Positions 285-17,729 are shown, numbered from the stretch's first letter. The stretch is 36,865 bases of DNA from Candidatus Rokubacteria bacterium GWC2_70_16 (GCA_001788415.1 MGBV01000099.1:34430-71294); one strand, 5' to 3'. Made by a program: numbers and translations. The notes: generated from the letters alone by a model not told the origin.

Positions 285-524
285 ATGGCGCAGCTGAGCG
301 CCGACCTGATGCTGGACTGCCGAGGGCTGGCCTGCCCTGTGCCGATCCTGAAGCTGTCCAAGGCCATCACTCAGATTCAGGCGGGGCAGATCATCGAGCT
401 CAGCGCCACCGACAGCGGCTCCCGGGACGACGTTCCTGCCTTCTGCCAGCGCACCGGCAACGCGCTGGTCTCCACCCGGGAGGAGGGCGGCGCCTTCATC
501 TTCTATGTCAGGAAGGGGCCCTGA
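285..524 (+). CDS. tusA: TusA/SirA-family sulfurtransferase
   Basis: Translation MAQLSADLMLDCRGLACPVPILKLSKAI contains the TusA CPxP motif; start chosen at ATG 285 inside the longer ORF 219..524. Confidence 0.9.
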   Translation: MAQLSADLMLDCRGLACPVPILKLSKAITQIQAGQIIELSATDSGSRDDVPAFCQRTGNALVSTREEGGAFIFYVRKGP

Positions 525-751: not shown

Positions 752-2140
752 GTGCATATCCCCCGCCTGGTCATCTCAGCCCCCCATGGCCGGTCGGGCA
801 AGACCACCGTGGCGATAGGGCTGGCAGCCGCCTTCGCCCGGCGGGGGCTGAGGGTCCAGCCCTTCAAGAAGGGGCCGGACTACATCGACCCGAGCTGGCT
901 CGGCGAGGCCGCCGGCCGCCCCTGCCGGAACCTGGATCTCTTCCTGATGGATGCCGACAGGGCCCTGGAGACAGTGGCCTGCGCCTGCCAGTCGGCAGAC
1001 CTGGCCCTCGTCGAGGGCGCTCATGGCCTCTATGACGGGCTCGACGGGGACGGAGCCAATAGCACGGCCCGGCTGGCCAGGCTCCTCCAGGCGCCTGTCG
1101 TGCTCGTCGTGGACGCGACCCGGATGACCCAGAGCGTGGCCGCCCTGGTCCTGGGATTCCGGGACTTCGACCCCGGCGTCCAGCTCGCCGGCGTCATCGC
1201 GAACCAGGTGAGCAGCCCTCGCCACCGCGCCAAGCTGGCCGATGCCCTCGCCCGGCACACGGGCATCCCGCTCCTGGGCGCCCTGCCCCGGGACCCCTCG
1301 CTGTCGATCCCCGACCGCCACCTGGGGCTCGTCCCGAGAGACGAGGACGATGGGCTCCTCCCCGTGGTGGAGCGGGTCCGCGCCGCCGTGGAGGCCTCGG
1401 TGGACGTGGAGGCGCTGCTGGGTCTGGCCCGCGGCGCGCCGGCCCTGCCGGTGGGTCCGCATTGCCCTGAGCGAATGCCTCCCGCCCAGGTGAGGCTCGC
1501 CATCGCCAGAGACCGGGCCTTCACCTTCTACTACATGGAAAACATCGAGGCCCTGCGGGCGGCCGGGGCCGAGCTGGTCTGCCTGGACACGCTCGGGGAC
1601 GGGGCGCTTCCCGACGTCGACGGCCTGTACCTCGGCGGGGGCTTCCCGGAGATGTTCCTCGATGAGCTCGAGGCCAACGAGGCGCTCCGCGCGGACATCC
1701 GCGCAGCGGTTGGCGAGGGTCTGCCGGTCTATGCCGAGTGCGCGGGGCTCATGTACCTGGCTCGGCGCATCGCCTGGCGCGGCCGCTCGGCGGCCATGGT
1801 GGGGGCGCTGCCCTGCGACGTGGAGGTCACGGAAAGGCCCCAGGGGCACGGCTACGTGCGCGCGCGCGTCACGGGCGCGAACCCCTGCTTCCCGGTCGGG
1901 ACTGAGCTCCGCGGCCACGAGTTCCACTACTCCCGAGTGGTGAACCTGGGGCCGGCGCGCTTCGCCTATCGCCTGGAGCGCGGACAGGGCGTGGCCGACG
2001 GGCGGGACGGCCTGGTGGTGGGCAACGTGCTCGCCGCCTATACCCACCTGCACGCCGCCGGCACCGCGGGGTGGGCCGAGAGCCTCGTGGCCCAGGCGCG
2101 CGCCCACCAGGCCCGCCGGCCGGCCAGGGAGGCCCGATGA
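752..2140 (+). CDS. dsrN: Cobyrinate a,c-diamide synthase-like glutamine amidotransferase (DsrN/CbiA family)
   Basis: SAPHGRSGKTTVAIGLAAAF P-loop, KKGPDYIDPSWL, GGGFPE and YAECAGLMYL amidotransferase motifs; GTG start at 752 inside ORF 593..2140; dsr locus context. Confidence 0.88.
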   Translation: MHIPRLVISAPHGRSGKTTVAIGLAAAFARRGLRVQPFKKGPDYIDPSWLGEAAGRPCRNLDLFLMDADRALETVACACQSADLALVEGAHGLYDGLDGDGANSTARLARLLQAPVVLVVDATRMTQSVAALVLGFRDFDPGVQLAGVIANQVSSPRHRAKLADALARHTGIPLLGALPRDPSLSIPDRHLGLVPRDEDDGLLPVVERVRAAVEASVDVEALLGLARGAPALPVGPHCPERMPPAQVRLAIARDRAFTFYYMENIEALRAAGAELVCLDTLGDGALPDVDGLYLGGGFPEMFLDELEANEALRADIRAAVGEGLPVYAECAGLMYLARRIAWRGRSAAMVGALPCDVEVTERPQGHGYVRARVTGANPCFPVGTELRGHEFHYSRVVNLGPARFAYRLERGQGVADGRDGLVVGNVLAAYTHLHAAGTAGWAESLVAQARAHQARRPAREAR

Positions 2141-2490
2141 AGATCGGGGTGATGGTCCAGGAGGGCCCGTATCAGCACCAGGCCTCCGACAGCGCCTGGG
2201 AGTTCGTCCAGGCGGCGCTCGCGCGGGGACACGAGGTCGTCGGCGTCTTCTTCTACACCGACGGCGTGCACAACGTGAACCGGTTCATGAACCCGCCGGG
2301 CGAGCGGGTGATCGGCAAGCGGTGGTCCGAGCTGGGGGCCCAGGGGGTGCCGCTGGTGGCGTGCGTCACCGACTCGACGTACCGGGGCGTCACCCAGGAG
2401 CTCGCCGTCGCCAACGTGAAGATCTCCGGGCTGGGCAGCCTGGCCGAGTTCATCCAGCAAGCCGACCGCTTCGTGACGTTCGGCGACTGA
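2137..2490 (+). CDS. dsrE: DsrE-like sulfurtransferase subunit (TusD/DsrE)
   Basis: MKIGVMVQEGPYQHQASDSAWEFVQAALARGHEVVGVFFYTDGVHN...VPLVACVTDSTYRGV with the conserved Cys; start overlaps dsrN stop. Confidence 0.88.
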   Translation: MKIGVMVQEGPYQHQASDSAWEFVQAALARGHEVVGVFFYTDGVHNVNRFMNPPGERVIGKRWSELGAQGVPLVACVTDSTYRGVTQELAVANVKISGLGSLAEFIQQADRFVTFGD

Positions 2491-2504: not shown

Positions 2505-2813
2505 ATGAGGGGGGTCGGAGTTCTTGGCGTAACGCTTCTGGTTGTCCTTGCGTCGGTGGGCGTCTCGGCCCAGATGCCGATGGAACACAAAGGCACAATC
2601 TCGAAGATCGACACGAAGGCGAAGACCTTCGCCGTCAAGGACGAGAAGGGCAAGGAGGTGACGATGCACGCGGAGGATGTCAAGGCTTTGGCGGGCCTTC
2701 GGGTGGGTGACAAGGTCGTCGTGAAGATGACCGCGAAGGACGGGAAGAACATGGCCAAGGAGGTGCTGAAGGAAGCTACCGGACGGGCTCCCGCGCCTGG
2801 GTATGGAAAATGA
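2505..2813 (+). CDS. Small secreted beta-rich protein of unknown function
   Basis: Signal peptide MRGVGVLGVTLLVVLASVGVSAQ followed by KGTISKIDTKAKTFAVKDEKGKEVTMHAEDVKAL; GA-rich RBS upstream of ATG 2505. Confidence 0.6.
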   Translation: MRGVGVLGVTLLVVLASVGVSAQMPMEHKGTISKIDTKAKTFAVKDEKGKEVTMHAEDVKALAGLRVGDKVVVKMTAKDGKNMAKEVLKEATGRAPAPGYGK

Positions 2814-2841
2814 CACGCTCCGCATTGCGAAGGAGGAAGTC

Positions 2842-4146
2842 ATGACGCCGCAATCCTCCGGCAAGACCGCCTGGGCCAGTGTCTCCTGGATCGGCGGACT
2901 CACCGTCTTGATGCTCGCTCTTCTCTCCCTTCCCGACGTCGCACTGGCTCAACAGAAAGCAAGAACGGTGGACGATCTCGCGAAGATGTACGACGTCGCC
3001 TCATGCAAGCAGTGCCACGCCAAGGTCTACGAGGAGTGGGAGAAGTCAACGCACGCGCGCTCCCTCATCGGAACCGGCCGGACCATCGGGGGATTCCAAG
3101 GAATGATCAGGGCCGGCCTCATGGGGGCATTCACGAAATCGGGGGTGAAGGATGTAGGGGACGTCAAAGTCGAGCACCTCGCGCAGTGTTTCAAGTGCCA
3201 TCTTCCGCAGATTTCGGATGCCACCGATGAGGTCGCGCGGGAACTCGTCAAGGCATACCTGGATGCTGATCGGGCCACGCTCGGCAAGGTCAACGTCAAC
3301 TGTCTCGTGTGCCACAACACGAAGGCGATTCTGCACAAGTGGCAGGATGGGGAGCCCGAGAAGGGCGTCGTCTACGGCTCCAAGGACGGTCCGCATCCCG
3401 ACAAGTACCCGGCGATGAAAAACAGCGTGGTCATGAAAGAGGCGGCGATGTGTGGCCAGTGCCACGGCACGGGGCCGAACTTCGAATTCCCGCAGCCTTC
3501 GCAGTGCGCGACCGCGTACGGGAGCTATCTCCACGCCTATATTCCCGCGGGCGGCACAGAGACGTGTCAGGACTGCCATATGAAGAAGGACGGCAAGGGG
3601 CACCTCATGCCCGCCTACCGCGACCCGGATATGGCGAAGAGGGCCGTGGATGTCGACGTGGAGGCGAGGGGATACAAGTTCCTGCTCAAGGCAGGGGACT
3701 CAATCCCGACAGCCGTGGTGACGGTGAAAATCACGAATAAGGCAGGGCATCGAATCCCTGATGGCTGACCCTCGCCCCAGAGAGCGGTCCTGGACGTGAC
3801 CGCGAAGACAAGCGATGGCAAAGAGATCTTCAGGGATTCAAAGATCTATATGCCGCAAGCCACCAATAGTCGTGGTGATGCGATGGTCTACGGGGCGCAC
3901 TTCAAGATGGGATATACCCGCGACACGAGCCTTCAGCCGCTTCAGACCAGGGTGGAGACCTACGAAATCAAGTTCCCGTATGAAGACGTCGAGAAGGAAA
4001 AGGGCAAACCCAGGGTGAGAGAGATACGGGCCAGGGAGATGGACGTGACGGTTGAGCTGCGGTACCAGCCTGATCCTGCGCCAGGTGAAGCGGGAAAGGA
4101 CAGTTTCGTTCTGCATAAGACGACGAAGAAAGTCAGCATCAAATAG
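2842..4146 (+). CDS. Periplasmic pentaheme c-type cytochrome with in-frame TGA (candidate selenocysteine at codon 309)
   Basis: AAGGAGG RBS, ATG 2842, signal peptide, five CxxCH motifs (CKQCH, CFKCH, CLVCH, CGQCH, CQDCH); reads GHRIPDG-TGA-PSPQRAVLDVTAKTSDGKEIFRDSKIYMPQ in one frame to the stop at 4146 (track splits it into 2803..3768 and 3796..4146). Confidence 0.75.
3784..3803 (+). promoter_or_regulatory. Candidate bacterial SECIS-like hairpin downstream of the in-frame TGA
   Basis: GCGGTC-CTGGACGT-GACCGC: perfect 6-bp stem, 8-nt loop containing GG, starting 15 nt after TGA 3766-3768. Confidence 0.5.
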
Positions 4147-4164: not shown

Positions 4165-4587
4165 ATGGAAGATCTGTCGGGGCACGGTGAGCTCCAGGTG
4201 GAGCCCCGCGGGGCTCCACCGAAGAAGGTTTTGGTGCTGATGCGCAAGGCCCCTTATGGAACCCTCTACAACTGGGAGGGCCTGCAGGTGCTCCTCATCA
4301 TGGGGGCCTACAAGATGCAGGGTCTGGTGGACATCGCCGTGGCCTTCGTGGAGGACGGGGTCTTCGCGATCACCCAGGGGCAGGACCCGAGCAGCCTGGG
4401 GATGAAGGCGATCGCGAAGACCTACCCGGCGCTCCCGGACTTCGAGGTGGACCGCTTCTACGTCGACGGGCAGTCACTGGCCGATCGGAGCCTGACCCTG
4501 GATGACCTGGTGATCCAGCCCGAGATCCTCGACGCGGCGGGGATGGCCCGGCTCTTGGAGGAGCAGGACGCGGTCCTGCCGTTCTAG
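4165..4587 (+). CDS. dsrF: DsrF-like sulfurtransferase subunit (TusC/DsrF)
   Basis: KKVLVLMRKAPYGTLYNWEGLQVLLIMGAYKMQGLVDIAVAFVEDGVFAI; alternative GTG start at 4198. Confidence 0.85.
   Translation: MEDLSGHGELQVEPRGAPPKKVLVLMRKAPYGTLYNWEGLQVLLIMGAYKMQGLVDIAVAFVEDGVFAITQGQDPSSLGMKAIAKTYPALPDFEVDRFYVDGQSLADRSLTLDDLVIQPEILDAAGMARLLEEQDAVLPF
4197..4220. repeat. Perfect 24-nt palindrome in the dsrF 5' region
   Basis: GGTGGAGCCCCGCGGGGCTCCACC equals its own reverse complement. Confidence 0.9.
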
Positions 4588-4600
4588 AGGAGGCCGAGTG

Positions 4601-4894
4601 ATGCTCTTCACGGTGAACAAGTCGCCTTACCTGCACGGCAACCTGGAAGGCTGCCTGCGGCTGGCCCCGGCCGGGACGCCGCTCGTGCTCTACGAGGACG
4701 GGGTGTACGCGGCGGCGGCGGGCACGCGCGTGGAAGAGCTGATGCGCCAGGCCCTGGCCCGGCACCCCGTCTATGTGCTGGAAGCCGACCTCAGGGCCCG
4801 CGGGCTCGGGCGCCTGATCGAGGGCGTGCGGGTGATCGACTACGCGGGCTTCGTGGAGCTGGTGGAGCAGCATCCCGTGGTGCCCTGGCTGTGA
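4601..4894 (+). CDS. dsrH: DsrH-like sulfurtransferase subunit (TusB/DsrH)
   Basis: MLFTVNKSPYLHGNLEGCLRLAPAGTPLVLYEDGVYAAAA; position directly after dsrF. Confidence 0.83.
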   Translation: MLFTVNKSPYLHGNLEGCLRLAPAGTPLVLYEDGVYAAAAGTRVEELMRQALARHPVYVLEADLRARGLGRLIEGVRVIDYAGFVELVEQHPVVPWL

Positions 4895-4930: not shown

Positions 4931-6340
4931 ATGCTGGTGGTGCAGCTGGCGTGTCCCAAGTGCGGCTTCGTCATCGAGCAGTACCCGGCCGAGCAGCTCG
5001 AGACGGACTCCCAGAAGCAGAAGCGCTACCAGTACCTCCGGAAGAAGCAGACGCTCTGCCCGAGCTGCCTCACCCAGACCTCCAAGCTCGAGGAGCGCCG
5101 GGTGGAGGCCCAGGCCGGGGCCGAGGCGAGCGTGCTCGCGGCGGCCCAGGCGCCCGCCGAGGCCGGCGCCCCCGAGGCGGACGAGGGGCCGACGCCATTC
5201 TGCGACGAGCTCGGGCGGGGGCCCTGGCCGAGCCACGTGAGGGAGCTCAGGCGAACCCGCTACCACATGCAGATGTACGAGGAGGCCCTGAGGCTCCGCC
5301 AGACCCAGTGGGGCTTCGGCGGCTACGTCTCGCTGCCGGGGGTGGCCGCCGGGCTTGCGGTGCGCGCCTCGGCCCGCCCCGAGATCGCCAAGGGGGCCAA
5401 CTTCCTCCGGATCCTCCCTCCCGGCGGCAGCTTCTACTCCACCGAGACCCTCGGCAAGGTCTGCGACATCGCCGACCGCTACGCCTATGGCCTCCTGCAT
5501 CTGCACAGCACCGGCGGGAACATCGAGATCCTGGGGATCCCCACCGAGCAGCTCAAGGAGGTGGTCTCCGCCCTGAACGCCCAGGGGCTGGACGTGGGGT
5601 CCACCGGCGATGCCTACCGCAACACCGTGGAATGCGTCGGCCCGGCGCGCTGCGATGCGACCCTGATCGACACGCTCGGGATCCGCGACGCATGGTACCG
5701 GCGCTTCCTGGACGACGTGCAGTTCCCGCGCTTCCCCCACAAGCTCAAGATCAAGATCTCCGGCTGCCCTAACGACTGCACCCGCTCCGTCCAGAAGTCG
5801 TGCATCGCGCTCATCGGCGTCTTCCGCGACGCCCCGAAGATCGACCACGAGCGGCTGGCCGCCTGGGTCGAGGGGGGAGGCGACGCGGCCCACATCGCGC
5901 GGATGTGCCCGCCCCGGGCCCTTGACTGGGACGGGCGGCGGCTTGCGATCGACCAGGAGGCCTGCACCCACTGCATGTACTGCATCAACAAGTGCCCGGC
6001 CATCCGGCCGGGGGACGACCGCGGGGTGGCCGTGCTGGTGGGCGGGAAGCTCCGCGGCAAGTACGGCCCGCTCCTGGGACGGGTGCTGGTCCCCTTCGTT
6101 CCCTTGGCGCCGCCCGAGTACCGCGAGCTGTTCGACCTCCTCCACAGGATCGACGAGGTCTTCGACGAGCACGCCCGCCGGAAGGAGCGCCTGGGCGATT
6201 TCCTCTTCCGGATCGGGATGGACCAGTTCTCCCGGCTCGTGGGGATCGAGCCCTCGGCCCATCAGATGGCCGAGCCCCGGAGCAATGTCTTCTATCACTG
6301 GGCCGCCGGCCCGCCCGGCAGCGACGCGGCGGAGGTGTAG
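4931..6340 (+). CDS. dsrA: Dissimilatory sulfite reductase alpha subunit, copy 1, with N-terminal CxxC...CxxC extension
   Basis: GRGPWPSHV, ECVGPARC (CX5C), SGCPNDC (CX3C), CTHCMYCINKCP ferredoxin domain; extra N-terminus MLVVQLACPKCGFVIEQY...KKQTLCPSCLTQTSKLEERRV. Confidence 0.95.
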   Translation: MLVVQLACPKCGFVIEQYPAEQLETDSQKQKRYQYLRKKQTLCPSCLTQTSKLEERRVEAQAGAEASVLAAAQAPAEAGAPEADEGPTPFCDELGRGPWPSHVRELRRTRYHMQMYEEALRLRQTQWGFGGYVSLPGVAAGLAVRASARPEIAKGANFLRILPPGGSFYSTETLGKVCDIADRYAYGLLHLHSTGGNIEILGIPTEQLKEVVSALNAQGLDVGSTGDAYRNTVECVGPARCDATLIDTLGIRDAWYRRFLDDVQFPRFPHKLKIKISGCPNDCTRSVQKSCIALIGVFRDAPKIDHERLAAWVEGGGDAAHIARMCPPRALDWDGRRLAIDQEACTHCMYCINKCPAIRPGDDRGVAVLVGGKLRGKYGPLLGRVLVPFVPLAPPEYRELFDLLHRIDEVFDEHARRKERLGDFLFRIGMDQFSRLVGIEPSAHQMAEPRSNVFYHWAAGPPGSDAAEV

Positions 6341-6342
6341 CC

Positions 6343-7395
6343 ATGCCCGGAATCGGCGTCGCGCCAATGGAAGCGAATCTCCCTCCCATCGTGAGGCGCA
6401 ATTACGGCGCGTGGGTGTGGCACGAGGTGATCCGGCCCGGCGTCCTGAAGCACGTGTCGAAGAGCGGGGAGGCCTGCTTCACCGTGCGAGCGGGGATGCC
6501 CCCCAACGCCCGGGTGTCGACCGCGCTCGCCCGCCGGATCTGCGAGGTGGCCAACCGGTTCTGCGGCGGCTACCTCCGCATCACCCGGCGCCACAGCCTG
6601 GAGCTGGTGGGGGTGGCCGAGGCCGAGCTCGGCGCGGCGATCGCGGCGCTCCGCGAGATCGGGCTGGCGGTGGGGGGGGCCGATCGCACCTTCCACAACA
6701 TCGTCTGCTGCACGGGCTGGATCCATTGCCAGTTCGCCGCCACCGATGCGCCCGCCATCGCCAAGGCGATCTCGGACGGGCTCTGGGAGGATTTCCAGTC
6801 GGAGGGGTACCCGGCCAAGCTGAAGATCTCCATCGCCGCCTGTGTCAACCAGTGCGGCGAGGGCTCCACTGCCGACATCGGGGTGATCGGCATCCATCGC
6901 GACCTGCCGCGGGTCAACGACGCGGAGGTGGCGAAGTGCGAGGTGCCGCTGATCGTCTCCATCTGCCCCACCGGCGCCATCCGTCCGAAGCCCCCCAAGA
7001 GCGTGCAGGTGGACCCCAGGCGCTGCATCCACTGCGTGGCCTGCGTGGGGCAATGCGTCGGCATGCCCATCGGGGACCCCGAGACCGACGGCGTGGCGAT
7101 CTACGTCGGCGGCAAGGCCGGCAACCAGGGGAGCGGCCCCGCCTTCGGCAAGCTGGCGATCCCGTATCTGCCCAACCGCCCGCCGCGCTGGCCGGAGGTC
7201 GTCCAGGCCGTGACGGGCATCATCGGGGTGTGGACGAAGGGGGCCCGGAGGGACGAGCGCATCGGCGACTGGATCAGCCGGATCGGCTGGGAGCGCTTCT
7301 TCGACAAGACAGGGCTGCCGGTGAGCGACAAGCACCTGGACGGCTATGTCCTCTGGCCCATGGCGGCGCGCACCGGGGTGCGGTTCCGCTGGTAG
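6343..7395 (+). CDS. dsrB: Dissimilatory sulfite reductase beta subunit, copy 1
   Basis: MPGIGVAPMEANLPPIVRRNYGAWVWHEVIRPGVLKHVSKSGE, CTGWIHC, CVNQCGEG, ferredoxin motif CIHCVACVGQC, PPRWPEV, IGWERFF; start at ATG 6343 inside ORF 5992..7395. Confidence 0.95.
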   Translation: MPGIGVAPMEANLPPIVRRNYGAWVWHEVIRPGVLKHVSKSGEACFTVRAGMPPNARVSTALARRICEVANRFCGGYLRITRRHSLELVGVAEAELGAAIAALREIGLAVGGADRTFHNIVCCTGWIHCQFAATDAPAIAKAISDGLWEDFQSEGYPAKLKISIAACVNQCGEGSTADIGVIGIHRDLPRVNDAEVAKCEVPLIVSICPTGAIRPKPPKSVQVDPRRCIHCVACVGQCVGMPIGDPETDGVAIYVGGKAGNQGSGPAFGKLAIPYLPNRPPRWPEVVQAVTGIIGVWTKGARRDERIGDWISRIGWERFFDKTGLPVSDKHLDGYVLWPMAARTGVRFRW

Positions 7396-7443
7396 GCCAA
7401 CCCCGCGCATGACGGGAGGGGACACGGTGAGGAGAGAGCGACG

Positions 7444-8856
7444 ATGCTGATGGTGCAGCTGGCCTGTCCCAGGTGCGGCTTCGTCATCGAGCAGTACGGG
7501 GCCGCCCAGCTGGAGGCGGACACCCAGAAGCAGAAGCGCTACCAGTACCTCAGGAAGAAGCAGACCCTCTGCCCGAGCTGCCTCAGCCAAACCGCCAAGC
7601 TCGAGGAGCGCCGGGTGGAGGTGGAGGCTGGGCCCCAGGCCGAGCTCATGGCCGAGGCCGAGGCGCCGCCCGAGGCGGTACCTGCGGGCGAGGCCGTCGC
7701 GCCGACGCCGCTATGCGACGAGCTGGAGCGCGGGCCCTGGCCCAGCCACGTGACCGAGCTCAAGCAGACGCGGTACCACATGCAGATGTACGAGGAGGGC
7801 CTCCGCCAGAAGCGAACCCAGTGGGGGTTCGGCGGTTACACCTCGATTCCCGGTGTGGCCTCCGGGATCCTCATGCGGGCCTCGGCCCGGCCCGACATCG
7901 CCAAGGGCGCCAACCTGGTCCGCGCCTTCTGTCCCAGCGGGACGTTCTACTCCACGCAGACCTTCCGGGCCCTCTGCGACGTGGCGGACCGCCACGGCTA
8001 CGGCATCCTGCACCTCCATGCCACGACCTGCGACATCGAGGTCCTGGGGGTGCCCAAGGAGGAGCTCCGGGCGACGGTGGACGAGCTGGTGGCGGCCGGC
8101 CTGGACGTGGGCTCCACCGGGGATGCCTACCGCAACTGCCAGGAGTGCATCGGCCCCTTGCGCTGCGAGATGGTCCTGGTGGACTCGGTGGCCATGCGCC
8201 AGGCCTACTTCACGCGCTTCCTGGACGACGTCCAGTACCCGCGCTTCCCCCACAAGATCAAGTTCAAGCTCTCGGGGTGCCCCAACGACTGCACGCGCTC
8301 GCAGCAGAAGGGGGACATCGCCATCGTCGGGGTGTTCCGGGATCCGCCGACGATCGACGCGGCCCGGCTCGAGGGCTGGGTCGCTGGGGGCGGGGACATC
8401 GCCCACATCGTCAGGATGTGCCCGACGCGAGCCATGGAGTGGGACGGCCGGCGGCTGGCCATCGACGCCGACGGCTGCGTCCGCTGCATGTACTGCATCA
8501 ACAAGTGCCCGGCCGTCCGCCCGGGGGGCGATCGCGGCGTGGCCGTCCTGGCCGGCGGCAAGATGCGGGGCAAGTATGGGCCCCTCCAGCCCTTCGTCAT
8601 CGCGCCATTCGTCCCCGCCGTCCCGCCGGACTTCACGGAGGTCTTCGACCTCTGCGCCAAGATCACCGATGTCTACGACGAGCACGCGCGCCGCAAGGAG
8701 CGGCTGGGGGACTTCATCTACCGCACGGGGATCGACCAGTTCTGCCGCCTGGTCGGCGTGCCGTCGGCCCCTCAGCAGATGGTCTCTCCCCGCATCAATC
8801 CCTTCTACCACTGGACGCCCGAAGAGCTGCAGGCCTCCCGGAAGGAGGCCGACTGA
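7444..8856 (+). CDS. dsrA: Dissimilatory sulfite reductase alpha subunit, copy 2, with N-terminal CxxC...CxxC extension
   Basis: ERGPWPSHV, ECIGPLRC, SGCPNDC, CVRCMYCINKCP; N-terminal MLMVQLACPRCGFVIEQY...LCPSCLSQT. Confidence 0.95.
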   Translation: MLMVQLACPRCGFVIEQYGAAQLEADTQKQKRYQYLRKKQTLCPSCLSQTAKLEERRVEVEAGPQAELMAEAEAPPEAVPAGEAVAPTPLCDELERGPWPSHVTELKQTRYHMQMYEEGLRQKRTQWGFGGYTSIPGVASGILMRASARPDIAKGANLVRAFCPSGTFYSTQTFRALCDVADRHGYGILHLHATTCDIEVLGVPKEELRATVDELVAAGLDVGSTGDAYRNCQECIGPLRCEMVLVDSVAMRQAYFTRFLDDVQYPRFPHKIKFKLSGCPNDCTRSQQKGDIAIVGVFRDPPTIDAARLEGWVAGGGDIAHIVRMCPTRAMEWDGRRLAIDADGCVRCMYCINKCPAVRPGGDRGVAVLAGGKMRGKYGPLQPFVIAPFVPAVPPDFTEVFDLCAKITDVYDEHARRKERLGDFIYRTGIDQFCRLVGVPSAPQQMVSPRINPFYHWTPEELQASRKEAD

Positions 8857-9908
8857 TGCCGGGCGTCGGCCTCCCCCCGCTCGAACGGAACCTGCCGCCC
8901 ATCGTCCTCCGCAACTACGGCAAGTGGCTGGACCACGAAGAGCCGAGACCGGGCGTCCTCAAGCATGTGGCCGAGAGCGGCGAGGCATGCTACACCGTGC
9001 GCGCCGGGATGCCGACGAATGCGCGGGTCTCCACCACGCTCGCCCGCAAGATCGCGGACCTCGCGGACGACTTCGCCGGCGGGCACCTGCGCCTGACCCG
9101 GCGCCACAGCCTGGAGCTGGTCGGAGTGGACCCGGCCCGGATCGACGAGCTGATCGAGCGGCTCCGGGGTCTCGGGCTGCCCGTGGGCGGCACCGGCCGG
9201 ACATTCCGCAACACGGTGTCCTGCACCGGCTGGATCCACTGCCAGTTCGCTGCCACCGATGCCCCGGCGGTGGCCAAGGCCATCTCCGACGAGCTGTACG
9301 AGGACTTCCTCACCGAGCGCTACCCGGCCAAGCTCAAGATCTCCATCTCCGGCTGCGTGAACCAGTGCGGCGAGGGGTCCACCGCCGACATCGGGATCGT
9401 CGGCATCCACCGGGACCTGCCCCGGGTCATCGACGAGGAGGTGGCCCGCTGCGAGATCCCGCTGATCGTCTCGGTCTGCCCCACCGGCGCCATCAGGCCC
9501 AAGCCGCCGAAGAGCGTCCAGGTGGATCCCGAGCGCTGCATCCACTGCGTGGCCTGCGCCGCGCCGTGCCAGGGGATGCAGATCGGCGACCCCGACACCG
9601 ACGGCGTCGCGGTCGTGGTTGGCGGCAAGGCGGGCAACTCGGGGAACGGCCCGGCCTTCGCCAAGTTCGTGATCCCCTACCTCCCGAACAGCCCGCCGCG
9701 CTGGCCCGAGGTCACGCGGGCGGTGAGGCAGATCGTGGAGGTGTGGGTGAAGGGAGCCCGGCGGGACGAGCGGATCGGCGACTGGATCGCGCGGATCGGC
9801 TGGGACAAGTTCTTCGAGAAGGCCGGGCTGCCGATGAGCGACAAGCTCCTCGACGGCTACGTCCTCTGGCCCATGTCGGCCCGTACCGGGGTGCGGTTCC
9901 ACTGGTAG
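8856..9908 (+). CDS. dsrB: Dissimilatory sulfite reductase beta subunit, copy 2
   Basis: MPGVGLPPLERNLPPIVLRNYGKWLDHEEPRPGVLKHVAESGEACYTVRAG, CTGWIHC, SGCVNQCGEG, CIHCVACAAPC; ATG overlaps dsrA2 TGA. Confidence 0.95.
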   Translation: MPGVGLPPLERNLPPIVLRNYGKWLDHEEPRPGVLKHVAESGEACYTVRAGMPTNARVSTTLARKIADLADDFAGGHLRLTRRHSLELVGVDPARIDELIERLRGLGLPVGGTGRTFRNTVSCTGWIHCQFAATDAPAVAKAISDELYEDFLTERYPAKLKISISGCVNQCGEGSTADIGIVGIHRDLPRVIDEEVARCEIPLIVSVCPTGAIRPKPPKSVQVDPERCIHCVACAAPCQGMQIGDPDTDGVAVVVGGKAGNSGNGPAFAKFVIPYLPNSPPRWPEVTRAVRQIVEVWVKGARRDERIGDWIARIGWDKFFEKAGLPMSDKLLDGYVLWPMSARTGVRFHW

Positions 9909-9941: not shown

Positions 9942-10259
9942 ATGGCGACGGTAGAGCTCGAAGGCAAGACGATGGAGCTGGACGAGGATGGGTTCCTGCA
10001 GAATCCGGATCTCTGGTCCGAGACGGTGGCCCAGTACTTCGCCGACCAGGAGGGGCTGGGGCAGCTCACGGACGAGCACTGGAAGGTGGTGAAGATGATC
10101 CGCGGCTACTACCTGCAGTTCGGCGTCGCCCCCATGATCCGCAAGGTCGTCAAGGACACCGGCTTCGACCTCAAGTACATCTACCAGCTCTTCCCCTCGG
10201 GGCCGGCCAAGGGGGCCTGCAAGGTCGCCGGGCTCCCCAAGCCCACGGGCTGCGTGTAG
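9942..10259 (+). CDS. dsrC: DsrC sulfur carrier protein
   Basis: C-terminal swinging arm GACKVAGLPKPTGCV with both conserved cysteines (C-X10-C-V end). Confidence 0.95.
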   Translation: MATVELEGKTMELDEDGFLQNPDLWSETVAQYFADQEGLGQLTDEHWKVVKMIRGYYLQFGVAPMIRKVVKDTGFDLKYIYQLFPSGPAKGACKVAGLPKPTGCV

Positions 10260-10275: not shown

Positions 10276-10851
10276 GTGACGCTGCCCGCGGGCGCCCGCG
10301 CGGCGGGCGGGCCAGGTCTCGAGGCGCTGGCGGCACGGCGGAGCGCCATTGCCGGCCGGTGGCTGGCGCTGACGCTCGAGGGCTACCCGGCCCCCACCGC
10401 GCGCCTGCTGGCGCGCGAGACGGACCCCTTCCGCAACCCCGTCGGGCACACCCTCAGGCAGGCGCTGTCTGGCCTCGCGGAGGAGCTTGTCGGGGCCATG
10501 GACCCCGCCAGGGTCGCCGCCCTCCTGGACAGCGTCGTGAGGATCCGCGCCGTCCAGGACGTGAGCGCGAAGGAGGCGGTGAGCTTCGTGTTCCTGGCCA
10601 GGCAGGCCCTTCGCGAAGAGATCGACAGCGGCGGGGGACTGCCGGCCGGAGACGGGCTGGCGGCCGTGGAGGCGCGGGTCGACGAGATGGCGCTCTCGGC
10701 CTTCGACCTGTTCATGCGCTGCCGCGAGCAGATCCACGCGATCCGGGCCGACGAGGCCCGACGCCGGACGGCTCTCCTGGACCGCATCCGCGAGCGGGCC
10801 GGCCGGCCCGGGAGCGAGCCCGCCGGGGCGGACCCGGGAACTGCGCCGTGA
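10276..10851 (+). CDS. RsbRD N-terminal domain-like protein associated with dsr
   Basis: All-helical protein (RSAIAGRWLALTLEGYP...DPFRNPVGHTLRQALSGLAEEL); position between dsrC and dsrM resembles RsbRD_N proteins of dsr loci. Confidence 0.65.
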   Translation: MTLPAGARAAGGPGLEALAARRSAIAGRWLALTLEGYPAPTARLLARETDPFRNPVGHTLRQALSGLAEELVGAMDPARVAALLDSVVRIRAVQDVSAKEAVSFVFLARQALREEIDSGGGLPAGDGLAAVEARVDEMALSAFDLFMRCREQIHAIRADEARRRTALLDRIRERAGRPGSEPAGADPGTAP

Positions 10852-11840
10852 GCGCGCTGGCCCCCCTGGCCCTCGTCCTGCTCCTGGCCGGGCTGGCCCT
10901 GGCCGGCGGGCAGTTCTCCGGGCTCCGCCCCGTGCTCGGCGTGCTCCTCCCCTACGCGGCCTTCGTCACCTTCCTCCTCGGGGTGTGCCATCGCATCCTC
11001 GTGTGGGTGCGAGCGCCTGTCCCCTTCCGCATCCCCACCACCTGCGGCCAGCAGCGCTCCCTGCCCTGGATCAGGCAGAGCCGCATCGAGAACCCGTCCT
11101 CGACAGCTGGCGTCGTGGCGCGCATGGCGCTGGAGGTGTGTCTGTTCCGGTCGCTGCTCCGCGGCAGCCGGGCCGAGCTGCGGGAAGGGCCCCGGCTGGT
11201 GTACGCCGACGACCGGCTCCTGTGGCTGGCGGCGCTGGCCTTCCACTGGTCGCTTCTCGTCGTCGTCCTGAGACACCTGCGCTTCGTCCTGGAGCCAGTG
11301 CCCGCGGCGATCCGCACGCTGGCCGCGGTGGACGGGTTCTTCCAGCTGGGCGCCCCGGGGCTCTACGCCACGGATGTCGTCCTCGTGGCCGCGCTGGGCT
11401 ATCTCCTCTGGCGGAGGCTCGCAAACCCGCAGCTCCGGTACCTGTCGCTGTCCGCCGACTACTTCGCGCTCTACCTGCTGCTGGGGCTGGCCGCCTCCGG
11501 CCTGCTCATGCGGCATGTGGTCCGGACGGACGTCGTGGCGGTGAAGCAGCTCGCCCTCGGCCTCGTGACCCTGTCCCCCATTGTCCCCGAGGGCGTGGGC
11601 TCCCTGGCGCTCCTGCACCTCGTCCTCCTGAGCACGCTCGCCGCCTACTTCCCCTTCAGCAAGCTCATGCACATGGGCGGCATCTTCCTGAGCCCGACGC
11701 GGAACCTGGCCAATACGAGCCGGGCGCATCGCCACGTCAACCCCTGGAACGCGCCCGTCGCCACCCACAGCTACGAGGAGTGGGAGGACGAGTTCCGGGA
11801 CAAGATCAGGGCGGCCGGCCTGCCGCTCGAGAAGGGATAG
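10848..11840 (+). CDS. dsrM: DsrM, membrane cytochrome b subunit of the DsrMKJOP complex
   Basis: Multiple TM segments, NarI-like; LHLVLLSTLAAYFPFSKLMHMGGIFLSPTRN; GTG start overlaps upstream stop. Confidence 0.9.
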   Translation: MSALAPLALVLLLAGLALAGGQFSGLRPVLGVLLPYAAFVTFLLGVCHRILVWVRAPVPFRIPTTCGQQRSLPWIRQSRIENPSSTAGVVARMALEVCLFRSLLRGSRAELREGPRLVYADDRLLWLAALAFHWSLLVVVLRHLRFVLEPVPAAIRTLAAVDGFFQLGAPGLYATDVVLVAALGYLLWRRLANPQLRYLSLSADYFALYLLLGLAASGLLMRHVVRTDVVAVKQLALGLVTLSPIVPEGVGSLALLHLVLLSTLAAYFPFSKLMHMGGIFLSPTRNLANTSRAHRHVNPWNAPVATHSYEEWEDEFRDKIRAAGLPLEKG

Positions 11841-11842
11841 CC

Positions 11843-13462
11843 ATGGCGGAAGAGGCCCCGGCCCCCGCGCAGCTCGCGCAGGTCGACTACCGGCCGCCGG
11901 CGCGGGACTGGCGGGAGGCCGCCGTCGACTTCCGCAAGGGGACCTACTGCTACAGCGCCGCGCCCAAGAACCTCCAGTACCTGGGGCTGCCCAATCCGCG
12001 ACCGTGGCAGCCCCACGACGCGGACTGGAAGCTCCCCCCCGACTGGAAGCAGACCATCCTCGCGGGCATGAAGGACAGGCTCGAGCGCTTCCGGTCCTTC
12101 CGCCTGTTCATGGACATCTGCGTGCGCTGCGGGGCCTGCGCCGACAAGTGCCACTTCTACCTCGGCACCGGCGACCCCAAGAACATGCCGGTGTTGAGGG
12201 CCGAGCTGATGCGCTCGGTGTACCGGCGCTACTTCACCCTGCCCGGCCGGCTGCTGGGCGGGCTCGCGGGCGGGCGGGAGCTCACCGAGGACGTGCTCAA
12301 GGAGTGGTTCTACTACTACCACCAGTGCACGGAGTGCCGCCGCTGCTCGGTCTTCTGCCCCTTCGGGATCGACACGGCGGAAGTGACCATGATGGGGCGC
12401 GAGCTGCTGACCCTGGTGGGCTGCAACATCAACTGGATCCTCGAGCCGGCGGCGAATTGCTACCGGACGGGCAACCACCTCGGGATCCAGCCCCATGCCT
12501 TCAAGGACAGCGTCGACTTCGCCGTGGACGAGCTGGAGGAGATGACCGGCATCCGCGTGGAGGCTCCCATCAACAAGAAGGGCGCCGAGATCCTGTACGT
12601 GATCCCGTCGGCGGAGACCTTCGGGACGCCCCACTACTACACGCTCCTGGGCACGCTGCTCCTCTTCCACGCCATCGGTCTGGACTACACGCTCAGCGCG
12701 TATGCCTCCGAGGGCGGCAACTTCGGCCTCTTCACCTCCCACGAGGTGATGAAGCGGCTGAACGCCAAGATCTACGCCGAGGCCCGGCGGCTGGGGGTCA
12801 AGTGGATCCTCGGCGGCGAGTGCGGCCACATGTGGCGCGTCGTGCACCAGTACATGGACACCATGAACGGCCCGGCGGACTTCCTGGAGGAGCCCGTCTC
12901 GCCGGTGACGGGCACGCGGTTCGAGCAGGCGCGGTCCACGAAGATGGTGCACATCTGCGAGTTCACGGCCGATCTCATCCGCGAGGGCAAGCTCCGGCTC
13001 GACCCCCGGCGGAACGACCACTGGGTCGCGACCTTCCACGACTCCTGCAACCCGGCCCGGGCCATGGGGCTCCTCGAGGAGCCGCGCTACATCCTCCGGA
13101 GCGTGTGCCAGCGCTTCCACGAGATGCCCGAGAGCACCATCCGGGAGCGGACCTTCTGCTGCGGCAGCGGGTCGGGTCTCGGCACGGACGAGAATTTCGA
13201 GATGCGCATGCGGGGCGGCTTCCCCCGGGCCAATGCCGTGAGGCATGTGCAAGACCGGTTCGGCGTGAACCTGGTGGCGTGCATCTGCGCCATCGACAAG
13301 GCCACGCTCCCGCCGCTCCTGGAGTACTGGGTGCCGGGGATGAACGTGGCCGGCGTGCACGAGCTCGTGGGCAATGCCCTCGTGGTCGACGGCGAGAAGG
13401 CGCGGACCCAGGACCTGCGCGGCCAGCCCCTGGTCTCGCCGGAGGCACCCGCCGGTGCGTGA
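11843..13462 (+). CDS. dsrK: DsrK, HdrD-like Fe-S subunit
   Basis: CVRCGACADKCHFYLGTGD, CTECRRCSVFCPFGID, CCGSGSG and related CCG-domain motifs; ATG 11843 inside ORF 10985..13462. Confidence 0.93.
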   Translation: MAEEAPAPAQLAQVDYRPPARDWREAAVDFRKGTYCYSAAPKNLQYLGLPNPRPWQPHDADWKLPPDWKQTILAGMKDRLERFRSFRLFMDICVRCGACADKCHFYLGTGDPKNMPVLRAELMRSVYRRYFTLPGRLLGGLAGGRELTEDVLKEWFYYYHQCTECRRCSVFCPFGIDTAEVTMMGRELLTLVGCNINWILEPAANCYRTGNHLGIQPHAFKDSVDFAVDELEEMTGIRVEAPINKKGAEILYVIPSAETFGTPHYYTLLGTLLLFHAIGLDYTLSAYASEGGNFGLFTSHEVMKRLNAKIYAEARRLGVKWILGGECGHMWRVVHQYMDTMNGPADFLEEPVSPVTGTRFEQARSTKMVHICEFTADLIREGKLRLDPRRNDHWVATFHDSCNPARAMGLLEEPRYILRSVCQRFHEMPESTIRERTFCCGSGSGLGTDENFEMRMRGGFPRANAVRHVQDRFGVNLVACICAIDKATLPPLLEYWVPGMNVAGVHELVGNALVVDGEKARTQDLRGQPLVSPEAPAGA

Positions 13463-13850
13463 CCGGGGTTTGCTGGTCGGCGGCCTGGCCCTCTTCGTGG
13501 CCGTGATCACCTTCCCGGTCTGGTACAACGTCGCCGCCGGGACGCCCACGCGGGGCCCCGAGCCCGTGCGCCCCGCCGGGACCGGGCGCTGCGTTGGGCC
13601 CACGGAGTACATGCGCGCTTCCCACATGAGCCTGCTCATGGCGTGGCGCGACGACGTGGTGCGAGGGCAGGACCGCAACTTCGTGGGCCCCGACGGGAAG
13701 ACCTACGCCAAGAGCCTCACGCGCACCTGTCTCGGCTGTCACACCAGCAAGGCGGAGTTCTGCGACCGCTGCCACGACTACGGCGCCGTGAAGCTCACCT
13801 GCTGGGAGTGCCACATCGACCCCGCCTCACTCCGGAAGGCTCAGCGATGA
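13455..13850 (+). CDS. dsrJ: DsrJ, triheme c-type cytochrome
   Basis: CLGCH, CDRCH, CWECH motifs; single N-terminal TM; GTG start 13455; between dsrK and dsrO. Confidence 0.9.
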   Translation: MRDRGLLVGGLALFVAVITFPVWYNVAAGTPTRGPEPVRPAGTGRCVGPTEYMRASHMSLLMAWRDDVVRGQDRNFVGPDGKTYAKSLTRTCLGCHTSKAEFCDRCHDYGAVKLTCWECHIDPASLRKAQR

Positions 13851-14614
13851 GCATGGATCGCCGGGCTTTCCTGGGCGCGGCCGGGCTCTCCGCGCTGGCC
13901 ATGACCGGGACCCAGTCCCTCGAGGCCCTGGCCGGCGCCGGCCGCCCGGAGACAACGCCCGAGGGGCGCCGCGCCCCGCGCTGGGGCATGGTCATCGATC
14001 TGCGGAAATGCCTCGAGGACCGGGGCTGCACCGATTGCATCGCCGCCTGCGAACGCGCGCACAACGTGCCGCGGCTCGAGTCGCGGGCCCACGAGGTGAA
14101 GTGGATCTGGCGGGAGCCCTACGAGCGGGCCTTCGCCCAGCGCGGGAGCGGGTACGGGGACGAGGCCCTCAGGGGCAAGCGCGTCCCCGTGCTCTGCAAC
14201 CACTGCGACAATCCCCCGTGCGTGCGCGTGTGCCCCGTCAAGGCCACGTGGAAGCGGGGAGACGGCATCGTCATGATGGACTGGCACCGCTGCATCGGCT
14301 GCCGCTACTGCATGGCGGCCTGTCCCTACGGGGCGCGGAGCTTCAACTGGCTCGACCCGCGCCCCCGGGTCAAGGAGGTGAACCCGGATTTCCCCACGCG
14401 GACCAGAGGGGTCGTCGAGAAATGCAACTTCTGCGAGGAGCGGCTCGCCCAGGGGCGCGGGCCGGCCTGCGTGGAGGCGTGCCGGGAGCGGGCCCTGACT
14501 TTCGGGGACCTGCGGGACCCCGGCTCGGAGGTGCGCGGGCTCTTGCGGAGCCGTCACGCCATGAGGCGGAAGCCCGAGCTCGGCACCGAGCCGAGCGTCT
14601 ACTACCTGGCATGA
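13847..14614 (+). CDS. dsrO: DsrO, periplasmic Fe-S protein
   Basis: Tat-like MSMDRRAFLGAAG leader; CTDCIAACERAHN, CNHCDNPPCVRVCPVKAT, CIGCRYCMAACPYGAR. Confidence 0.93.
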   Translation: MSMDRRAFLGAAGLSALAMTGTQSLEALAGAGRPETTPEGRRAPRWGMVIDLRKCLEDRGCTDCIAACERAHNVPRLESRAHEVKWIWREPYERAFAQRGSGYGDEALRGKRVPVLCNHCDNPPCVRVCPVKATWKRGDGIVMMDWHRCIGCRYCMAACPYGARSFNWLDPRPRVKEVNPDFPTRTRGVVEKCNFCEERLAQGRGPACVEACRERALTFGDLRDPGSEVRGLLRSRHAMRRKPELGTEPSVYYLA

Positions 14615-14632
14615 GGAGGCAGGGAGGCGGCC

Positions 14633-15832
14633 GTGCTTGACAAGGGGCTCAGTGGGGGCGGGCGGTACTGGGCCTGGCTCGGCGCCCTGGCCGCGCTGAT
14701 CGTCGCGGGCGCGCTGGCCTACCAGCGGCAGCTCACGCTGGGGCTGGGGATCACGGGGCTGAGCCGGGATGTGACCTGGGGTCTCTACATCGCCCAGTTC
14801 ACCTTCCTGGTCGGGGTCGCGGCCTCGGCCGTCGTGGTGGTCCTGCCCTATTACCTGCACGACTACCGCGTCTTCGGCAAGATCACGATCCTCGGCGAAT
14901 GCCTCGCCGTCTCCGCCGTGGCCATGTGCCTGCTCTTCGTCTTCGTGGACATGGGCCAGCCCGCGCGCGCGCTGAACGTGCTCCTGTACCCGACGCCCAA
15001 CTCCATCATGTTCTGGGACATGCTCGTGCTCGCCGGCTACCTGGCGCTCAACGCCGTCATCGCCCGGGCCACGCTCTCGGCCGAGCACCGGGGCGTGCCG
15101 CCGCCCCGGTGGCTCCGGCCCGTCATCGTGCTCTCCATTCCCTGGGCCGTCAGCATCCACACGGTCACGGCGTTCCTGTACAGCGGGCTCCCCGGACGGC
15201 ACCTGTGGCTGACCGCGCTCCTGGCGCCGCGCTTCCTCGCCTCGGCCTTCGCCTCGGGGCCCGCCCTGCTGATCCTCCTGGCCATGCTCCTCCGCCGACT
15301 CACGGGCTTCGACGTCGGCCGGGAGGCCCTCCAGAAGCTCGGGCTGATCGTCGCCTACACGATGACCGTCAACGTGTTCTTCGTGCTGGTGGAGCTCTTC
15401 ACGGTCTTCTACAGCCAGGCGCCCGAGGCGATGCACCACTTCGAGTTCCTGTTCCTCGGACTCGAGGGCCAGGCGGGGCTGGTCCCGTGGATGTGGGCCT
15501 CGGTGGTCCTGGCCATGATGTCGCTGGGCCTGCTCCTCACGCCGCGCTGCCGCCAGGACATGCGGCTCCTGGCCGCCGCCTGCGCCATGGTGTTCGCCTC
15601 GCTGTGGATGGACAAGGGCCTCGGCCTCATCGTCGGCGGCTTCGTGCCCTCGCCCCTGGGAGAGGTGACGGGCTACGCCCCGACGCTGCCGGAGGTCGCC
15701 ATCGCGCTCGCCATCTGGGCCGTGGGCTCGCTGCTGGCCACCGTGCTCTTCAAGGTCGTCGCCGCCGTGAGGGGGGAGCCGAGTGGCCCCGACCCCCACT
15801 CCCGCTGGGCCCGGGCCCCCGTCGAGCCATGA
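14633..15832 (+). CDS. dsrP: DsrP, NrfD-family integral membrane protein
   Basis: About 10 hydrophobic segments, ITGLSRDVTWGLYIAQFTFLVGVAASAVVVVLPYYLHDY; locus context. Confidence 0.92.
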   Translation: MLDKGLSGGGRYWAWLGALAALIVAGALAYQRQLTLGLGITGLSRDVTWGLYIAQFTFLVGVAASAVVVVLPYYLHDYRVFGKITILGECLAVSAVAMCLLFVFVDMGQPARALNVLLYPTPNSIMFWDMLVLAGYLALNAVIARATLSAEHRGVPPPRWLRPVIVLSIPWAVSIHTVTAFLYSGLPGRHLWLTALLAPRFLASAFASGPALLILLAMLLRRLTGFDVGREALQKLGLIVAYTMTVNVFFVLVELFTVFYSQAPEAMHHFEFLFLGLEGQAGLVPWMWASVVLAMMSLGLLLTPRCRQDMRLLAAACAMVFASLWMDKGLGLIVGGFVPSPLGEVTGYAPTLPEVAIALAIWAVGSLLATVLFKVVAAVRGEPSGPDPHSRWARAPVEP

Positions 15833-16326
15833 AGGTCAGGCGCGAGAGCAAGTACGGCCTCCTCGGCCTGATCTTCCTGGCCCAGCAGGCGCCCGGCCGC
15901 GTGGTCGGGCTCAAGGAGATCGCGGCGCGCCAGGGGCTGCCCGAGCACTTCCTGGCCAAGATCTTCCCGAAATTCGTCCGCTACCGGCTGGTGAGGGCCT
16001 ACCGCGGCGCCACGCGAGGGTATGCCCTGGCGCGGGCCCCGGAGCACATCAAGCTCCGCGAAATTCTCGAGGCCATCGAGGGGCCCGAGGTGACCAACCA
16101 GTGCTTCTTCTGGGGCAGCGAGTGCGACGTGACCAACCCCTGCCCCGTGCATTGCCGGTGGAGAGAGATCCGGCCCTGGATCACCGACATCCTCGAGCGG
16201 ACCACGCTGCAGGAGCTGATCCTCAAGCAGTTGATGGTGAACGAGGTCACGGGCAAGGAGCGAGGGCCCGCTGACAGCCCCGCCGCGCCGGCCCGGATCG
16301 GTGAGCAGGCCTCAGGGAGCCCCTGA
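15829..16326 (+). CDS. Rrf2-family transcriptional regulator
   Basis: KVRRESKYGLLGLIFLAQQAPGRVVGLKEIAARQGLPEHFLAKIFPKF winged helix; Cys cluster CFFWGSECDVTNPCPVHC; ATG overlaps dsrP stop. Confidence 0.88.
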   Translation: MKVRRESKYGLLGLIFLAQQAPGRVVGLKEIAARQGLPEHFLAKIFPKFVRYRLVRAYRGATRGYALARAPEHIKLREILEAIEGPEVTNQCFFWGSECDVTNPCPVHCRWREIRPWITDILERTTLQELILKQLMVNEVTGKERGPADSPAAPARIGEQASGSP

Positions 16327-16329
16327 CGG

Positions 16330-16959
16330 ATGGGCAGCTATCCGGTGTGCCTCGAGCTTGCGGGCCAGCCCTGTCTCGTCATCGGCGGCGGGCCCGTCGC
16401 GGAGCGGAAGGTCGAGGGCCTCCTGGCCGCGGGGGCGGCGGTGACCGTCGTGAGCCCTTCGCTGACGGCCGGCCTGGCGGCCCTGGCCCGCGGGGGGCGG
16501 ATCCGCCACCTGCCGCGCGAGTACGGGCCCGGGGATGTGGCCGGAAACCGGCTCACCCTTGCCGCCACCGGGAAGCGCGAGGTCGATGCGGCAGCCAGCC
16601 GCGAGGGCCGCGAGCGCGGCGTCTGGGTCAATGCCGCGGATGCTCCCGATCTTTGCGACTTCACCCTCCCGGCGGTGCTCCGTCGCGGTGACCTCGTGGT
16701 GGCCGTGTCCACCGGGGGGGCGAGCCCCGCGCTGGCGCGAGCGGTCAGGGAGGAGCTCGAGGGCCACCTCCCCGAAGCGTATGCCGCGCTCGCCGACATC
16801 GTCGCCGAGGTCAGGCGGGAGCTGAGGCAGCGCGCCTGCTCCCCCGGCGGAGAGGCGTGGCGCCAGGCTCTCGACGCCGATCTCCGCCGGCTGGTCGCGG
16901 AGGGACGACGGGCGGAGGCGAAGGCCAGGCTCCTGGCGAGGCTCGCCCCATGCCCGTAG
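16330..16959 (+). CDS. Precorrin-2 dehydrogenase / siroheme synthase N-terminal domain (CysG-N/Met8-like)
   Basis: PVCLELAGQPCLVIGGGPVAERKVEGLLAAGAAVTVVSP; VSTGGASPALARAVREELE. Confidence 0.9.
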   Translation: MGSYPVCLELAGQPCLVIGGGPVAERKVEGLLAAGAAVTVVSPSLTAGLAALARGGRIRHLPREYGPGDVAGNRLTLAATGKREVDAAASREGRERGVWVNAADAPDLCDFTLPAVLRRGDLVVAVSTGGASPALARAVREELEGHLPEAYAALADIVAEVRRELRQRACSPGGEAWRQALDADLRRLVAEGRRAEAKARLLARLAPCP

Positions 16960-17729
16960 GCCCCGTGTATCTGGTCGGCGCAGGTCCCGGCGATCCAGGG
17001 CTCCTCACGGTGCGAGGCCTGGAGCTCCTGCGCCAGGCGGAGGTGGTGGTCTACGACCGCCTGGTCAATCCGGCCCTCCTGGAGGAAGCCCCCAGCGAGG
17101 CGATCCGGATCTTCGCCGGCAAGCTCACGGCCATCCACAGCCTGCCTCAGGAGGAGATCAACGCCCTCCTCATCGCGCATGCCCGCCGCGGCCGGCGCGT
17201 GGTCAGGCTCAAGGGCGGGGATCCCTTCGTCTTCGGCCGGGGCGGCGAGGAGGCCGAGGCCCTCCTGGCGGCAGGGATCTCCTTCGAGGTCGTGCCCGGC
17301 GTCAGCTCCGCCGTCGCGGTTCCCGCCTACGCCGGCATCCCGGTCACCCATCGGGGCCTGGCCTGCTCCTTCGCCGTGATCACCGGCCATGAGGACACCG
17401 GCAAGGGCCAGCCCGCCGTGGACTGGAAGCGGCTCGCGACGGCCGTGGACACGCTCGTCATCCTCATGGGCGTGACGGCCCTGCCCGGAATCGTGGCCGA
17501 TCTCCTCGCCGGCGGCCTGTCACCGGAGACCCCCGTCGCCCTCATCCGGTGGGGAACCACGGCGGCCCAGCAGACGATCACCGGCACCCTCGGAGACATC
17601 CTCCCACGGGCGACAGGGCTTGCGCCTCCCGTCGTCGTCGTCGTCGGTGAGGTCGTCGCGCTCGGCCACCGGCTCCAGTGGTTCGAGGCCGCCGCCGGGG
17701 CCATCCCCCTCCCCGCGCTGGCCACCTGA
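16950..17729 (+). CDS. cobA: Uroporphyrinogen-III C-methyltransferase
   Basis: VYLVGAGPGDPGLLTVRGLELLRQAEVVVYDRLVNPALL; VRLKGGDPFVFGRGGEEAEAL; ATG 16950 inside ORF 16857..17729. Confidence 0.94.
   Translation: MPVGPVYLVGAGPGDPGLLTVRGLELLRQAEVVVYDRLVNPALLEEAPSEAIRIFAGKLTAIHSLPQEEINALLIAHARRGRRVVRLKGGDPFVFGRGGEEAEALLAAGISFEVVPGVSSAVAVPAYAGIPVTHRGLACSFAVITGHEDTGKGQPAVDWKRLATAVDTLVILMGVTALPGIVADLLAGGLSPETPVALIRWGTTAAQQTITGTLGDILPRATGLAPPVVVVVGEVVALGHRLQWFEAAAGAIPLPALAT

Follow-up and report, generated by a model that had tools for sequence, protein, structure and literature searches.

The window analysed here is a stretch of 36,865 nt from Candidatus Rokubacteria bacterium GWC2_70_16 (GCA_001788415.1 MGBV01000099.1:34430-71294), whose source is a metagenome-assembled genome (MAG; G000) of 4.7 Mb, 87% complete and 5.3% contaminated. 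Its GC content and dsr gene set, together with the DsrAB already published for Rokubacteria, agree with a placement in this group (Methylomirabilota). The window contains two dsrAB pairs, dsrA1B1 (4931-7395, "pair 1") and dsrA2B2 (7444-9908, "pair 2"), which lie head to tail on the + strand within one complete dsr gene cluster (Table 1); all four reading frames are open, with no internal stops. The pairs have the same span of 2465 nt, which is a coincidence, since dsrA2 is one codon longer but overlaps dsrB2 by 1 nt, while dsrA1 and dsrB1 are 2 nt apart. These coordinates and the equal spans had been given exactly by a first-pass annotation made from the sequence, which also described the pairs as paralogous yet substantially diverged; identity is indeed 67% between DsrA1 and DsrA2 and about 75% between DsrB1 and DsrB2, and the motifs it named are present (ECVGPARC / ECIGPLRC and GCPNDC in both DsrAs, ferredoxin Cys in all four proteins).

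Among sequences in the PDB, both DsrAs match the DsrA of Archaeoglobus fulgidus (E=1e-74 and 8e-78) and both DsrBs match DsrB chains (E<1e-87). The Dsr proteins of both pairs also match Pfam NIR_SIR and the profiles TIGR02064 (DsrA) and TIGR02066 (DsrB); DsrB1 and DsrB2 lie above the equivalog cut-off, and the two DsrAs score 326 and 333 (cut-off 392.85), as a basal lineage might give. An AlphaFold model of DsrA1 is of moderate quality (mean predicted local distance difference test score 70, predicted template modelling score 0.52), and its top fold matches are DsrA structures (3mmc_A, E=4e-26). The siroheme-cluster Cys are complete in both pairs, and the equivalents of Arg98, Arg170, Lys211 and Lys213, by which sulfite is bound in A. 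fulgidus DsrA (PMC10202398), are R160, R230, K271 and K273 in both DsrA1 and DsrA2 and are invariant in 49 DsrAs. The two proteins differ, however, at the position of A. fulgidus Thr133, a conserved Thr of DsrA that is Arg in assimilatory enzymes (PMC10229431): in an ungapped alignment, 44 of the 49 DsrAs have Thr there, DsrA2 among them, and Gly is found in DsrA1, three Verrucomicrobia and one archaeal copy. Both DsrBs have the siroheme-cluster motif CX5CXnCX3C, which assimilatory enzymes and Fsr also have, and not the CXnCCX3C of the solved enzymes and of canonical DsrB. The 13 of 50 DsrB rows that share it are those of basal and archaeal enzymes; it is common to the whole deep lineage and not specific to pair 1, so that both pairs are read as basal-lineage and not canonical DsrAB. 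Both DsrAs also carry an N-terminal zinc-ribbon-like extension of ~85 aa (CPKC/CPRC...CPSC; 4931-5180 and 7444-7700) with weak Pfam zinc-ribbon matches; the extension is likewise present in Verrucomicrobia and was seen in none of the remaining DsrAs looked at.

The DsrAB phylogeny that the first-pass annotation had proposed as a check places both copies outside the canonical oxidative and reductive clades. Trees of DsrA, of DsrB and of the two concatenated all join pair 1 and pair 2 as sisters in one Rokubacterial clade (concatenated support 100/99), which adjoins Verrucomicrobia (90/85); the whole basal group of Rokubacteria, Verrucomicrobia and archaea stands apart from the canonical reductive and oxidative clades (100/100). 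Neither pair falls in the oxidative clade (rDsrAB) in these trees, which held few oxidative sequences (Lambdaproteobacteria) and left out Moorella and other basal type I copies. The DsrB1 of the window groups with that of G071, a MAG of another genus (100/97), and the pair-2 clade is supported at 100/100; these groupings place the duplication after the divergence from Verrucomicrobia and before that between the genera g1 and g13. Dating by synonymous divergence (dS) was set aside because synonymous sites are probably near saturation at ~70% GC. A topology in which the split between Thr-form and Gly-form DsrA predates Rokubacteria, Verrucomicrobia and archaea (which would join pair 1 to Verrucomicrobia and to the second copy of the archaeon), a grouping named after the loop motif had been seen, was rejected (approximately unbiased test, p=0.004).

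Genome-wide searches of 95 genomes of the phylum found this DsrAB type in only five, G000 included, from three genera. Pair 2 is kept in all five. Pair 1 was not found anywhere in genomes G089 and G090 (of the window's genus) or G081, where a single type-2 pair lies directly 3' of dsrH. In G071 the order is dsrB1-dsrA2-dsrB2; one of its contigs has its break at about residue 31 of dsrB1 and the other, which carries tusA, dsrN, dsrE and dsrF, has its break within dsrH, so that the assembly gap between them most likely holds dsrA1. Elsewhere, Verrucomicrobia have a single pair, no second dsrA was found in the flanks (up to 6 kb) of 80 dsrA loci from many phyla, and 4 of 147 Desulfobacterota genomes with DsrA had two DsrA matches, none adjacent among the matches listed. 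Together with the 415 DsrABs counted in 376 genomes (PMC12948486), the Desulfobacterota count fits the first-pass statement that most dsr organisms carry one dsrAB. A sixth genome of the phylum, G004 (same class), has another type, a canonical-clade DsrAB with dsrN, dsrC, dsrM and dsrK nearby (locus L038), so that dsrAB was probably acquired more than once in the phylum.

The two pairs have recombined. Over the first ~50 codons of dsrA1 and dsrA2 (4931-5080 and 7444-7593), third positions are equal at 45 of 50 codons as against 26-34 of 50 elsewhere. The single dsrA of G090 is pair-1-like at 11 of 13 informative sites before about codon 49 and pair-2-like at 511 of 542 thereafter, a junction matched in extremity by none of 2000 permutations; it is what recombination between the two dsrA 5' ends would leave if it removed one pair. 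In G071 the last ~220 nt of dsrB1 and dsrB2 differ at three sites, as a gene-conversion tract, and the preceding 30-nt blocks have ~67-97% identity. The scars in G089 and G081 are weaker than that in G090; as exchange between the dsrA1 and dsrA2 5' segments seems to take place in any case, they were not taken as proof.

Selection was estimated for DsrB by comparing the window with G071 over 244 codons outside the conversion tract. The dS between the two genera is equal for both copies (0.30 for dsrB1, 0.31 for dsrB2), and the ratio of nonsynonymous to synonymous divergence, another check that had been suggested at the outset, is 0.32 (95% 0.20-0.49) for dsrB1 and 0.11 (95% 0.05-0.19) for dsrB2. 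Pair 1, as measured for dsrB1, is therefore under purifying selection and not decaying, but its constraint is about threefold weaker than that of pair 2.

The surrounding genes, all on the + strand, follow in the order tusA, dsrN, dsrE, a multihaem cytochrome gene, dsrF, dsrH, the two dsrAB pairs, dsrC, a gene for an RsbRD_N protein, dsrMKJOP, an Rrf2 regulator and siroheme genes. The spacers around the pairs measure at most 48 nt and no + strand terminator-like site was found around them, which, with the common strand, suggests that both pairs are co-transcribed in one apparent operon. The same genome encodes aprA, sat and soxB; a search for DsrD, run without a positive control, gave no match.

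Table 1. Features of the dsr gene cluster in the window (positions counted from the first nucleotide of the stretch).
Feature	Position	Strand	Remarks
tusA-like sulfurtransferase	285-524	+	PF01206
dsrN (CobB/CbiA-type amidase)	752-2140	+	Profile match; position conserved in relatives; start codon approximate
dsrE	2137-2490	+	TIGR03012 above cut-off
dsrF	4165-4587	+	TIGR03010 above cut-off
dsrH	4601-4894	+	TIGR03011 above cut-off; ends 36 nt upstream of dsrA1
dsrA1	4931-6340	+	469 aa; Zn-ribbon-like N-terminal extension (~1-85), DsrA core; Gly at A. fulgidus Thr133 position, loop HSTGGN
dsrB1	6343-7395	+	350 aa; cluster motif CTGWIHC...CVNQC
Inter-pair spacer	7396-7443	+	48 nt; no + strand terminator-like site; ribosome-binding-site-like GAGGAG upstream of dsrA2
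dsrA2	7444-8856	+	470 aa; same N-terminal extension as dsrA1; Thr at Thr133 position, loop HATTCD
dsrB2	8856-9908	+	350 aa
dsrC	9942-10259	+	Both C-terminal Cys present (...CKVAGLPKPTGCV)
RsbRD_N-domain protein	10276-10851	+	Between dsrC and dsrM; conserved in relatives
dsrM	10833-11840	+	NF038037, 488 bits; start codon approximate
dsrK, dsrJ, dsrO, dsrP	11843-15832	+	Order and similarity across relatives; names from position and sequence reading
Rrf2 regulator (15829-16326), siroheme synthase N-domain, uroporphyrinogen methyltransferase (cofactor supply)	15829-17729	+	Two siroheme genes named from sequence reading

Two of the neighbouring genes deserve mention in their own right. The RsbRD_N gene, which lies between dsrC and dsrM, is kept by all Rokubacteria that have this type of dsr cluster, and also by G004 and one acidobacterial locus. 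The multihaem cytochrome c gene (2803-4146) contains an in-frame TGA at 3766-3768 (GHRIPDG-TGA-PSPQ), beyond which the frame runs on to 4146; no relatives of the cytochrome were found in 94 genomes of the phylum or in plasmids. As the genome encodes selA (573 bits), selenocysteine at this TGA is possible; RNA downstream of it folds no better than shuffled sequences (z -0.33), and a nonsense mutation or an error in sequencing could also account for the codon.

The explanation we favour, and consider rather probable, is a tandem duplication of basal-type dsrAB in the Rokubacterial line, before the sampled genera split, after which a single dsr operon would have held two pairs in the same direction. 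Pair 2 would be the main enzyme, always kept and working with DsrC and DsrMKJOP. Pair 1 would be an optional, functionally shifted isoform, its active-site pocket altered by a Gly where DsrA has a conserved Thr; it would be translated from the transcript that also encodes pair 2 and use the DsrC and DsrMKJOP of that pair. Pair 1 would also evolve faster, and the likeness of the dsrA1 and dsrA2 5' ends would make its loss by recombination easy. Both pairs probably act mainly in sulfur oxidation, from sulfane sulfur to sulfite, because soxB, sat and aprA are present in the genome and tusA and dsrEFH in the cluster; in sulfur oxidation of the Allochromatium type, such a gene set fits the route from sulfane sulfur via sulfite to sulfate. 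DsrEFH alone is no proof of direction (PMC7596348).

Several points weigh against this interpretation. In other organisms a reductive role has been assigned to basal DsrABs (PMC10591310), and the literature is divided on this type. In DsrA1 the residue just before the Gly is a Thr (HSTGG), which a shift of the loop might put in the same place, and the Gly form is the only form in Verrucomicrobia and can thus act as sole DsrA. The selection figures cover the DsrB copies, dsrA1 being represented by a single sequence. Finally, the junction attributed to a deletion in G090 would equally result from an insertion in the lineage of the window; deletion is favoured because G071 has the tandem order and the divergence between DsrA1 and DsrA2 is large.

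The first-pass annotation had taken the retention of two intact pairs as a sign of subfunctionalisation. Specialisation is plausible, since these are real, intact paralogues, purifying selection acts on at least DsrB1, and one active-site position is not the same in the two DsrAs; the strict form, in which both copies are needed, is weakened by the absence of pair 1 from three relatives, which shows it to be dispensable. It is possible, if considerably less probable than not, that the window encodes two DsrABs of unlike chemistry, one of Thr-form and one of Gly-form, which work side by side and differ, for example, in their sulfur substrates or in the hand-over to DsrC. Keeping both forms would then be a recurring design, as an archaeal MAG has the combination too, apparently by a separate route. 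That MAG (G097; L043, L124, L125) also combines Thr-form and Gly-form DsrA, but its copies lie on separate contigs and are much more diverged, the intact copy is without the Zn-ribbon extension, and in the concatenated tree they are not grouped one to one with the pairs of the window.

A simple dosage effect, in which the pairs are equivalent in function and pair 1, slowly drifting, is kept only for more enzyme, is rather unlikely. It would agree with the common operon, the same catalytic Arg/Lys and cluster Cys, the gene conversion that keeps stretches alike, the weaker constraint on DsrB1 and the absence of pair 1 from three genomes; however, dosage duplicates are usually near identical, and here the DsrAs have diverged by ~33%, far more than pair-2 orthologues, and differ by Thr and Gly at the active site. 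We regard it as improbable that pair 1 is impaired or non-catalytic and tunes pair 2 through mixed heterotetramers (A1B2, A2B1 or A1B1-A2B2): equal length, common family and co-localised genes, the missing Thr of DsrA1 and the relaxed DsrB1 would allow it, but all substrate-binding Arg/Lys and cluster ligands of pair 1 are intact and Verrucomicrobia carry Gly-form DsrA alone. About as improbable are opposite directions, one pair oxidising sulfur and the other reducing sulfite. An oxidative-type and a reductive-type DsrAB do occur together in some other genomes (PMC7596348, PMC10591310), and the gene set here is mixed, with DsrEFH and TusA next to basal DsrAB; still, the pairs are sisters within one basal clade, so that the idea, as raised in the first-pass annotation for an oxidative and a reductive type, was not borne out, and one dsrC, one DsrMKJOP, one apparent operon and the negative dsrD search, limited as it was, also speak against it. 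It is very improbable that assembly has joined two strains in a chimera, or that one pair was gained by horizontal transfer from an unsampled relative, despite the contamination of the MAG and the same-genus genomes that are without pair 1: the order found in G071, a different genus, largely answers the initial worry about an assembly artefact and, with the equal dS of both DsrB copies, led to the rejection of the chimera, and both flanks are continuous with those of relatives; a transfer among Rokubacteria is still conceivable.

No description of a tandem sister dsrAB pair in Rokubacteria was found in the excerpts of the literature available, which did not include the first report, reportedly a 2018 paper on Rokubacterial dsrAB, so that an earlier notice is possible. 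Basal ("type II") DsrAB of Rokubacteria is itself already known, with that of Verrucomicrobia and Hydrothermarchaeota, and DsrD and DsrL are reported missing in the phylum (PMC10504309, PMC7174415, PMC12948486). Like that type, both pairs of the window stand in a clade with Verrucomicrobial and archaeal copies and are accompanied by DsrEFH. Moorella spp. also have two dsrAB copies per genome, one of them of basal type, but in different regions and of different ancestry (PMC10504309), whereas the pairs of the window are adjacent sisters. Two intact DsrAB systems per organism are likewise found in CG2-30-53-67, some Actinomycetota (on one contig in an Actinomycetota MAG) and Desulfopila; those are, however, of two known types, one oxidative and one reductive, with their own DsrL/DsrD, while the pairs described here are of one type and no such partner genes were seen.

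DsrAB is a widely used marker for sulfur metabolism and its direction, and here the whole enzyme has been duplicated within one deep-branching lineage. As the basal branch holds recombining paralogues and hybrid genes such as the dsrA of G090, it can mislead trees of DsrAB origin. The two pairs differ naturally at the active-site position by which assimilatory and dissimilatory enzymes are told apart, and would provide a natural pair for probing its role.

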